The notes under the pieces were generated by a model. That model made no database searches and was not told the origin of the DNA. It saw only the letters and a list, made by a program, of their open reading frames with translations. Made by a program: the position numbers and the translations under genes. This document shows positions 61,417-64,000 of a stretch of 64,000 nucleotides of DNA, piece after piece (the first letter of the stretch is position 1; each line of letters starts with the position of its first letter). The DNA comes from Paenibacillus sp. UNC499MF (GTDB lineage Bacteria > Bacillota > Bacilli > Paenibacillales > NBRC-103111), in the NCBI RefSeq assembly GCF_900107975.1, contig NZ_FNVF01000001.1, forward strand, positions 604,323 through 668,322, read 5' to 3'.

Positions 61417-62670
61417 ATGAAAGCAGAATTGATTGCCGTCGGAACAGAGCTTCTGCTGGGGCAGATTTTAAATACGAACGCTCAGTATTTGGCGCAGGAG
61501 TGTGCGATACTGGGCATCGATCTGTATTTCCAGACCGTCGTAGGCGACAACCCCGCCCGCATCCGGGAAGCTCTGGAACAGGCCGGCAAGCGGGCCGATC
61601 TGGTTATTACGACGGGAGGACTCGGCCCGACTCTGGACGATCTGACGAAGGACGTGTTGGCCGACATGACCGGCCGCCGCCTTTATATGGACGAGATTTC
61701 GATGGCCAAAATCCGCGAACTGTTCGATTCGCAAGGGCTGCATATGGTCGAGAGCAATTCCAGGCAAGCGAATATGATCGAAGGGGCGGAGCCCCTTCCG
61801 AACGACACGGGACTGGCCGTCGGGCTGGGCCTGGATCACGAGGGGACCCGGTACCTGCTTCTTCCCGGCCCGCCGAAAGAAATGAAGCCGATGTTCGAGC
61901 GTTATGCCAAGGACTGGCTGAGCGGCCTGATGACCGACGAGATGCCTTTGTACTCGAAGATGCTCAAATTTGCCGGGATAGGAGAGTCCTCCCTGGAACA
62001 CAAGCTGTTCGATCTCATCGAGAAACAGACCGATCCGACCATCGCTCCTTATGCCAAGGAGGGAGAGGTAACGATCCGTCTGGCGACGAAGGCGCACACG
62101 GAAGAAGAAGCTCTCCGCAAGATGGAACAGGTCGAGCGGGAAATCCGCAGCCGCGTAGGGGAGCATTTGTATGCGGAAGAGGACATCCCGATCGAGGAAG
62201 CGGTGCTCGCCATACTTCAATCAAGGAATCAGACGCTGACGACGGCCGAGAGCTGTTCCGGCGGACTCCTGAGTGATTTGATCACGTCTATCCCGGGGCG
62301 TTCCTCCGTGTTTCTGGGCGGAGTCGTCTCGTACTCCAACGAAATGAAGCACAGTATGCTCGGCGTTCCCGTAGAAATGCTCGAAGGCGAGGATGCTCCC
62401 GGAGCGGTCAGCGCCGAAACGGCCGAAGCGATGGTGCGGGGCCTGCTGGAGCGCACGAATGCGGATTATGCCGTATCCGTAACGGGAGTTGCCGGTCCGA
62501 CTACCTCGGAAGGCAAACCGATCGGGCTGGTCTATGTCGGAGTCGGCTGCAGGGACGGAGATATTCACGTTCAGAAGCTCCAGCTTCCCGGACTGCGGGA
62601 GACGATCAAGATGCGCGCGGCCAAAACGGCGCTGCACCAGCTTTGGAAACTTGTAAAGGCGGACGGCTAA
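61417..62670 (+). CDS. cinA: CinA: nicotinamide-nucleotide amidase / competence-damage protein
   Basis: A 417-residue two-domain protein: an N-terminal MoaB/MoeA-like COG1058 domain (AELIAVGTELLLGQILNTNA, TTGGLGPTLDDLTKDV, LLPGPPKEMKPMF) and a C-terminal CinA amidase domain (TTAESCSGGLLSDLI, VVSYSNEMKHSMLGV, VTGVAGPTTSEGKPIGLVYV). Such proteins act in pyridine nucleotide recycling and, in naturally competent species, are expressed with recA. ATG 61417 has AAAGGGGAT. recA lies 287 bp downstream. Confidence 0.95.
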   Translation: MKAELIAVGTELLLGQILNTNAQYLAQECAILGIDLYFQTVVGDNPARIREALEQAGKRADLVITTGGLGPTLDDLTKDVLADMTGRRLYMDEISMAKIRELFDSQGLHMVESNSRQANMIEGAEPLPNDTGLAVGLGLDHEGTRYLLLPGPPKEMKPMFERYAKDWLSGLMTDEMPLYSKMLKFAGIGESSLEHKLFDLIEKQTDPTIAPYAKEGEVTIRLATKAHTEEEALRKMEQVEREIRSRVGEHLYAEEDIPIEEAVLAILQSRNQTLTTAESCSGGLLSDLITSIPGRSSVFLGGVVSYSNEMKHSMLGVPVEMLEGEDAPGAVSAETAEAMVRGLLERTNADYAVSVTGVAGPTTSEGKPIGLVYVGVGCRDGDIHVQKLQLPGLRETIKMRAAKTALHQLWKLVKADG

Positions 62671-62683
62671 CCGGCGTTTTTTG

Positions 62684-62712
62684 TTGAAAAACCGCAGCTT
62701 TTAAGGTATAAT
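62684..62712 (+). promoter_or_regulatory. Sigma-A type promoter between cinA and recA, facing a terminator
   Basis: TTGAAA (62684-62689), exactly 17 bp, TATAAT (62707-62712). The expected start near 62719 lies only about 13 nt before the intrinsic terminator at 62732-62775, so the promoter would make a transcript of about 50 nt unless termination is relieved. Confidence 0.6.
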
Positions 62713-62731
62713 AAAAGTATGTTAACGGAAG

Positions 62732-62775
62732 AACCGTAGCGAAGAATTTGTCTTTGCTGCGGTTTTTATTTTTTG
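62732..62775 (+). terminator. Intrinsic terminator between cinA and recA
   Basis: A 14-bp stem (62732-62745 with 62751-62764, two G-U pairs) with loop ATTTG, followed by TTTATTTTTT. It would end cinA transcription and any RNA from the promoter at 62684. Confidence 0.88.
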
Positions 62776-62874: not shown

Positions 62875-62888
62875 CGAATGTATGTTCG
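62875..62888 (+). promoter_or_regulatory. LexA/DinR operator (SOS box) of recA
   Basis: CGAATGTATGTTCG matches the Gram-positive SOS box CGAAC-N4-GTTCG at all but one position. It lies 9 bp upstream of the recA -35, a place where a bound LexA would block polymerase. Confidence 0.85.
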
Positions 62889-62897
62889 AAAAAACAC

Positions 62898-62926
62898 TTG
62901 GCAACGGGTGAAAAAGAAGGTATGAT
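62898..62926 (+). promoter_or_regulatory. recA promoter
   Basis: TTGGCA (62898-62903) and TATGAT (62921-62926), 17-bp spacing, 31 bp before the recA start codon. Confidence 0.75.
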
Positions 62927-62957: not shown

Positions 62958-64000
62958 TTGTCAGATCGTCGTGCCGCATTAGAAATGGCATTGCGCCAAA
63001 TTGAGAAGCAGTTTGGCAAGGGTTCGATCATGAAACTCGGAGAATCAACACACATGCAGGTGGAGACCATCCCCAGTGGTTCCCTTGCTTTGGATATAGC
63101 ACTTGGAACCGGAGGCTTTCCTCGCGGTAGAATTGTCGAAATCTATGGACCGGAATCTTCCGGTAAAACAACGGTCGCTCTTCACGCGATCGCGGAAGTG
63201 CAAAAGTCCGGCGGACAAGCCGCTTTTATCGATGCGGAACATGCTCTTGATCCGCTTTATGCGAGCAAGCTCGGAATCAACATTGACGAATTGCTGCTTT
63301 CCCAGCCGGACACAGGCGAGCAAGCGCTTGAAATCGCGGAAGCCCTCGTACGCAGTGGCGCGGTTGATATCATCGTTATCGACTCCGTTGCCGCTCTCGT
63401 TCCGAAGGCGGAAATCGAAGGCGAGATGGGGGATTCCCACGTCGGTCTGCAGGCCCGTCTGATGTCGCAGGCGCTGCGTAAACTTTCCGGTGCCATCAAC
63501 AAATCGAAGGTTATTGCCATCTTTATTAACCAATTGCGTGAGAAAGTCGGCGTTATGTTCGGTAACCCTGAAACGACACCGGGAGGCCGTGCTTTGAAAT
63601 TCTATTCGACCGTCCGTTTGGATGTTCGCCGTGTTGAAACGATCAAGCAGGGCAACGATATGGTCGGTAACCGTACCCGTGTCAAGGTCGTGAAAAACAA
63701 AGTTGCGCCTCCGTTCAAACAGGCCGATGTTGACATTATGTACGGCGAAGGCATCTCCCGTGAAGGCAGCATCATCGATATCGGAACGGAACTGGATATC
63801 GTGAACAAGAGCGGCGCCTGGTATTCCTATAACGGCGATCGTCTCGGCCAGGGACGCGAGAACTCCAAGCAATTCCTCAAGGAAAACAAGGAAATTGCCG
63901 ATATCATTGAGCAAAAAATCCGGGAAGCGAGCAATCTCACGAATGTGGTTCCTCCGGCAGGCGTAGATGTAGACGATCCGGACGAAGAATTGGCACTCTT
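62958..64000 (+). CDS. recA: Recombinase RecA (truncated by the window end)
   Basis: DNA strand-exchange protein and SOS co-protease. The first 347 codons are in the window. Walker [10 protein letters not shown] is at 64-72, [20 protein letters not shown] and [20 protein letters not shown] (L2 loop) follow, and the C-terminal acidic tail is beginning ([11 protein letters not shown]) at the edge. The start is TTG 62958 with GGAAGTG about 62945. A LexA box and a sigma-A promoter precede it, so SOS induction is expected. The only incompleteness is the window boundary. Confidence 0.98.

Follow-up and report, generated by a model that had tools for sequence, protein, structure and literature searches.

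Several bacterial attenuators rely on mutually exclusive RNA structures: at the RAT sites of BglG, SacY and LicT, and at ANTAR targets, the terminator cannot form while a small hairpin is held by a protein. Competence-linked, LexA-independent supply of RecA is also known, mediated by ComK in Bacillus subtilis and by the cinA-recA late operon in Streptococcus pneumoniae. In the dfn and mln leaders of Bacillus velezensis, LoaP reads a UNCG-type leader hairpin (PMC12691694). Antitermination by conAn governs Gram-positive conjugation operons in plasmids of the pLS20 type (PMC8955417), and tad genes are needed for DNA uptake in Micrococcus luteus and Liberibacter (PMC4322843, PMC8513845). Here, we analyzed a stretch of 64,000 nucleotides from Paenibacillus sp. 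UNC499MF (the window) that carries, between cinA and recA, an element that we consider likely to be a promoter-proximal, trans-controlled transcription attenuator and a member of a dispersed family associated with DNA transfer genes.

The original prediction of a near-consensus sigma-A promoter aimed at a terminator upstream of recA was confirmed, and the promoter is kept in relatives. The region contains the following features.

61417 to 62670, + strand: cinA, the upstream gene, an open reading frame of 417 aa with orthologs at 55 to 98% identity in the family, which we take to encode CinA from knowledge of the family and from the recA neighbourhood
62684 to 62712, + strand: sigma-A promoter of the attenuator, TTGAAA-17-TATAAT, with the -35 box at 62684 to 62689 and the -10 box at 62707 to 62712 (11 of 12 consensus positions)
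62719 to 62774, + strand: predicted terminated leader RNA of 50 to 56 nt, with a presumed start 7 nt past the -10 box
62725 to 62737, + strand: competing (putative antiterminator) hairpin ACGG-AAGAA-CCGT, identified from covariation in homologous leaders and from stem-changed variants
62729 to 62767, + strand: intrinsic terminator stem-loop of 17 bp with a 5-nt loop, overlapping the competing hairpin, identified from its fold and from helix covariation
62768 to 62774, + strand: terminator U-tract, ATTTTTT after the stem, read from the sequence
62875 to 62888, + strand: LexA-box-like operator of recA, CGAATGTATGTTCG, read from the sequence and kept in almost every relative, where it lies after the element and before recA
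62898 to 62926, + strand: promoter of recA itself, TTGGCA-17-TATGAT
62958 to 63998, + strand: recA, with a likely TTG start, ending no more than 2 bases before the end of the window and having RecA matches in relatives

The predicted order of promoter and terminator thus stood and the distances did not, the gap between the -10 box and the stem being 16 nt instead of 13 and the stem 17 bp instead of 14. The ACGG-AAGAA-CCGT hairpin, the LexA box and the promoter of recA itself had been missed. The start of recA lies ~190 nt beyond the element, and the gene has this promoter in addition. The terminator folded with an energy of -23.9 kcal/mol (z = -6.5), none of the shuffled sequences being as stable, and no other strong terminator-like site was seen in the 6 kb scanned. 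Its helix was 93% paired across the homologous sequences, a value matched by none of 500 shuffles. Two further candidates were rejected: AAAAACCGCAGC (62689 to 62700), which overlaps the promoter and is the exact reverse complement of the terminator 3' arm (62757 to 62768), is altered in the two closest relatives, and the start of a short leaderless reading frame (ATG at 62719, MLTEEP) is not kept in relatives.

Conservation was assessed by locating the cinA-recA interval via CinA relatives in 104 genomes of the family and reading the intergenic regions. The promoter, GGAAG[A/C]ACCG and the terminator were present in nearly all of them, and an alignment of 69 distinct sequences showed that GGA.G.ACCG is invariant, including the GG located outside the terminator stem. 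A covariance model matched 382 of the 392 genomes of the order Paenibacillales, the position at recA being checked for sampled loci that included other families. Direct inspection of recA in 20 Paenibacillales genomes, the majority of which the model had matched weakly or not at all, revealed the element in 17 and a point change, CAGAAGAACC, in one; it was absent at recA in two families, f3 and f11, each represented by one of the 20 genomes. The element was also absent from the four outgroup recA leaders inspected, and the four class-wide matches considered as recA elements outside the order were rejected: three were generic terminators, and the fourth matched in part and lay away from recA. 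Promoter, hairpin and terminator thus occur together in the cinA-recA interval throughout the order, which answers the check on related genomes proposed with the original prediction for promoter and terminator. The exception is the spacing to recA, which varies from 154 to ~400 nt among relatives.

A promoter with at least 9 of 12 consensus positions was in place in 95% of 83 recA-linked elements versus 7.7% of shuffled sequences. No other copy in the family has a promoter as strong or as well conserved as the recA copy. This feature, together with a recA-copy leader of only a few nucleotides and the variable distance to recA (above), would suit a trans-acting small RNA: a ~50-nt hairpin RNA, made in abundance, would act at other targets, perhaps as a decoy titrating a hairpin-binding factor, and serve no purpose for recA. 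In the sampled core, however, every copy is found close in front of recA and oriented like the gene, and elsewhere the module directly precedes the start codon of operons, where read-through would be its natural function. We consider a small RNA of this kind unlikely.

The attenuator reading is suggested by the small hairpin, whose 3' strand is the 5' arm of the terminator, so that the two structures are mutually exclusive. Its 5' strand (62725 to 62728) lies outside the terminator, is dispensable for termination and covaries with its partner in homologous leaders. Covariation was weak in the recA set alone, because the pairs hardly vary there. Among 147 distinct non-recA leaders, pair 2 was kept in 134 (shuffle mean, 96.6; maximum, 106; 2,000 shuffles) and pair 3 in 80 (shuffle mean, 54.5; maximum, 71), whereas pairs 4 to 6 were at chance level in comparison to shuffles. 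Pair 1 also exceeded the shuffles, most leaders having been gathered with patterns that fix this pair. Judged from these alignments, the family hairpin is a 4- to 5-bp stem closed by an AAG[C/A]A loop, NNCGG-AAG[C/A]A-CCGNN. The loop was found in 223 of 231 non-duplicate leaders of recA and other genes; since its AAG is also paired to the U-tract when the terminator forms, conservation of the loop is partly confounded and alone is no proof of recognition. Three leaders (L253, L329 and L399) have changed stems, AGTGG/CCACT, GTGG/CCAC and AAGGG/CCCTT, and keep the AAGCA loop. At L253, hairpin and terminator stand apart. A CsrA site (ACGGA) was considered and not favoured, as the GG/CC pairing covaries.

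An ordinary cinA terminator, accompanied by a fortuitous or insulating promoter and a small hairpin that is a by-product of the terminator sequence preferences of the clade, would account for the position of the element directly after cinA and for the fact that AAGCACCG-stem terminators are common in the order. This explanation appears very improbable in view of the conserved promoter, the covariation outside the terminator, the leader position and the excess of the upstream strand: CGG directly preceded 43 of 100 distinct AAGCACCG..CGGTGCTT terminators of the order versus 1.6 expected, and 41 of these 43 also paired at the fourth and fifth positions. In a set of 30 loci with automatic open reading frame calls, the CGG-type terminators mostly preceded a co-oriented gene, and the gene following the other terminators was convergent in 17 of 23 cases. 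Matched terminators lacking the CGG strand were mostly located at the 3' ends of genes.

The median fold energy was -4.8 kcal/mol for the small hairpin versus -29.6 kcal/mol for the terminator. With a weak small hairpin and a strong terminator, termination is the expected default and read-through would need a trans-acting factor stabilizing the hairpin. The sign of the regulation, antitermination, is deduced from the geometry of the two overlapping structures. As the sequence cannot give the sign of the effect, the hairpin might instead be the target of an RNA-acting repressor, through which termination would be promoted or the leader degraded. We hold this to be quite unlikely, since the hairpin takes a strand needed by the terminator, so that holding it should favour read-through, and the terminator is already very stable unaided.

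Copies located away from recA were found with the covariance model and by pattern matching. They lie in the leaders of genes for CpaE/TadZ-like ATPases that open tad pilus operons, of comEA, of conjugation genes and of others. Two such copies are present in the genome of the window, one (C21:443544) before a gene that joins a Ser/Thr kinase to a CpaE-like domain and one (C17:55304) in the leader of a tad gene cluster. A scan of named genomes yielded at least 120 loci. Among the 120 matches listed, tadZ/CpaE was the downstream gene in 85, a conjugation coupling ATPase in 3 and a VirB2 pilin in 2, and 17 had no assignment. In operons led by the element, genes of the TadA and TadB/C types come after tadZ. 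Of the comEA loci examined, ~10 had the motif and many did not, including that of the window's genome; among the loci reached by the model and pattern matches, the com genes met behind the element were some comEA and no others. The element is carried by recA, some comEA genes and tad operons. A promoter with at least 9 of 12 consensus positions preceded only 35% of the non-recA leaders.

The original prediction had offered two outcomes, a stable RNA of about 50 nt or an attenuated second start for recA. The latter is the better of the two, as the same promoter, hairpin and terminator occur in the true 5' leaders of tad, comEA and conjugation genes; attenuation probably yields the ~50-nt RNA by default. 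At the level of sequence, the promoter, the terminator, the competing hairpin, their conservation and the sharing of the leader with other operons are established. The near-palindromic form of CGGAAG[N]ACCG as DNA would suit a signal read at the DNA level, for instance a site for uptake or protein binding that falls in terminators by coincidence. Such a signal is, in our opinion, highly improbable: CGGAAGNACCG has only 56 copies in this genome versus 37 for the reversed control, far below the numbers of uptake sequences, and the orientation of strand and promoter is fixed.

Other genes were also met behind the element. Genes for PD-(D/E)XK (Rpn-type) nucleases carry it at six loci, where a TATAAT-like box follows the terminator, a misfit with the leader logic. 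Two families lacking a convincing Pfam match recur, at three and five loci, and one of the two has a signal-peptide-like start. In metagenomic phage contigs (L499 to L537), CGGAAGAACCG..CGGTTCTTTTT terminators without the fourth stem pair precede one recurring type of gene, and another group of the viral-contig matches lies inside a coding frame. The phage CGGAAGAACCG terminators were rejected as family members, since the fourth pair is not kept.

The Alkalihalophilus plasmid pBpOF4-01 was scanned whole for the hairpin. It contained exactly six sites, all six followed by a terminator and a gene. The genes encode VirB2, the first protein of an operon opening with a relative of an S1-domain family, a coupling protein, a tad product, a G5/3D-domain protein and, at the sixth site, an EAL-domain region. 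At least four of the six leaders precede conjugation or tad genes.

Searches for the regulator covered several types of candidates. Of 13 element-carrying genomes, 11, including those of the window and of the pBpOF4-01 host, had a single NusG and no second one of the LoaP/RfaH type, and a NusG paralog is therefore unlikely to be the general regulator. No regulator gene was a common neighbour of the tad operons, whose upstream neighbours vary, and a search for a protein common to pBpOF4-01 and the named loci surfaced only tad, type IV secretion system and general genes. Related genes lie behind the element in Paenibacillus abyssi (L335) and in pBpOF4-01 (L411), the P. abyssi protein having an S1 RNA-binding domain. 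This S1-domain protein, with its relative in pBpOF4-01, is a possible candidate for the regulator.

Rfam gave no credible match in the window at gathering or relaxed thresholds, and the tad, comEA and conjugation leaders tested matched no family except a tRNA. We found no paper describing the element among open-licence PMC papers. The remark in the original prediction that neither outcome is an expected part of recA control was thus fair, in so far as neither an Rfam family nor a paper among open-licence PMC papers corresponded to the element.

In the mechanism that we propose, RNA polymerase would start at ~62719, and the small hairpin ACGG-AAGAA-CCGT would form first. By default, the longer terminator helix would capture the shared middle strand and transcription would stop after ~50 nt. 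A trans-acting factor, most likely an RNA-binding protein, would hold the small hairpin via its AAG[C/A]A loop and thereby block the terminator, and the polymerase would then read into recA, bypassing the LexA-controlled promoter of that gene. LexA bound downstream could block this read-through. The same factor would turn on the other leaders that contain the hairpin, including those of tad/Flp pilus, some comEA and conjugation operons, and RecA would thereby be supplied alongside the machinery for DNA uptake and transfer. We infer antitermination, a protein factor, independence from LexA and a role in transformation; the last is plausible for tad in Paenibacillales from the gene set, and the need for tad genes in DNA uptake by other bacteria makes a circuit shared by tad, comEA and recA plausible.

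More tentatively, and with slightly more doubt than belief, we propose that horizontal gene transfer in Bacillales is coordinated by a hairpin-dependent antitermination of a class not described before, which would act via an RNA-binding factor, one signal controlling recA, competence and Tad-pilus operons of the chromosome together with conjugation operons of plasmids. If so, these loci would form a testable DNA transfer regulon for Paenibacillales, in which the control of competence is poorly known, and would include a LexA-independent route to recA. The proposal predicts an RNA-binding antiterminator, whose targets could be found by a simple sequence rule. It would also suggest that the uptake genes of the host and a conjugative plasmid from another genus share one RNA signal.

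The locus displays the arrangement of an attenuator, namely, a promoter followed by a leader terminator before a co-oriented gene, and an alternative, mutually exclusive hairpin. Its supply of RecA would be LexA independent and competence linked, as in the control of recA by ComK and in S. pneumoniae, although these systems act at transcription initiation and the Paenibacillales element is a leader terminator. The logic of mutually exclusive antiterminator and terminator recalls the BglG/SacY/LicT and ANTAR attenuators. By eye, the element is one 4- to 5-bp stem with a pentaloop; neither two ANTAR hexaloop hairpins nor a ~30-nt RAT hairpin with internal loops was seen on such inspection. The M. 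luteus and Liberibacter tad papers do not describe this leader element (PMC4322843, PMC8513845). With LoaP, the element would share the control of operon read-through in Bacillales by a small 5' leader hairpin and a terminator (PMC12691694), but LoaP reads a UNCG-type hairpin that is separate from the terminator, whereas the AAG[C/A]A hairpin described here overlaps it, and no UNCG loop was present in the 231 non-duplicate leaders. With conAn, it shares the antitermination, here proposed, of conjugation operons. The conAn system, consisting of the protein ConAn1 and the RNA conAn2, acts from one operon start on many downstream terminators (PMC8955417), whereas in the family described here each leader terminator has its own overlapping ~15-nt hairpin, and the copies are scattered among unlinked loci of chromosomes and plasmids.
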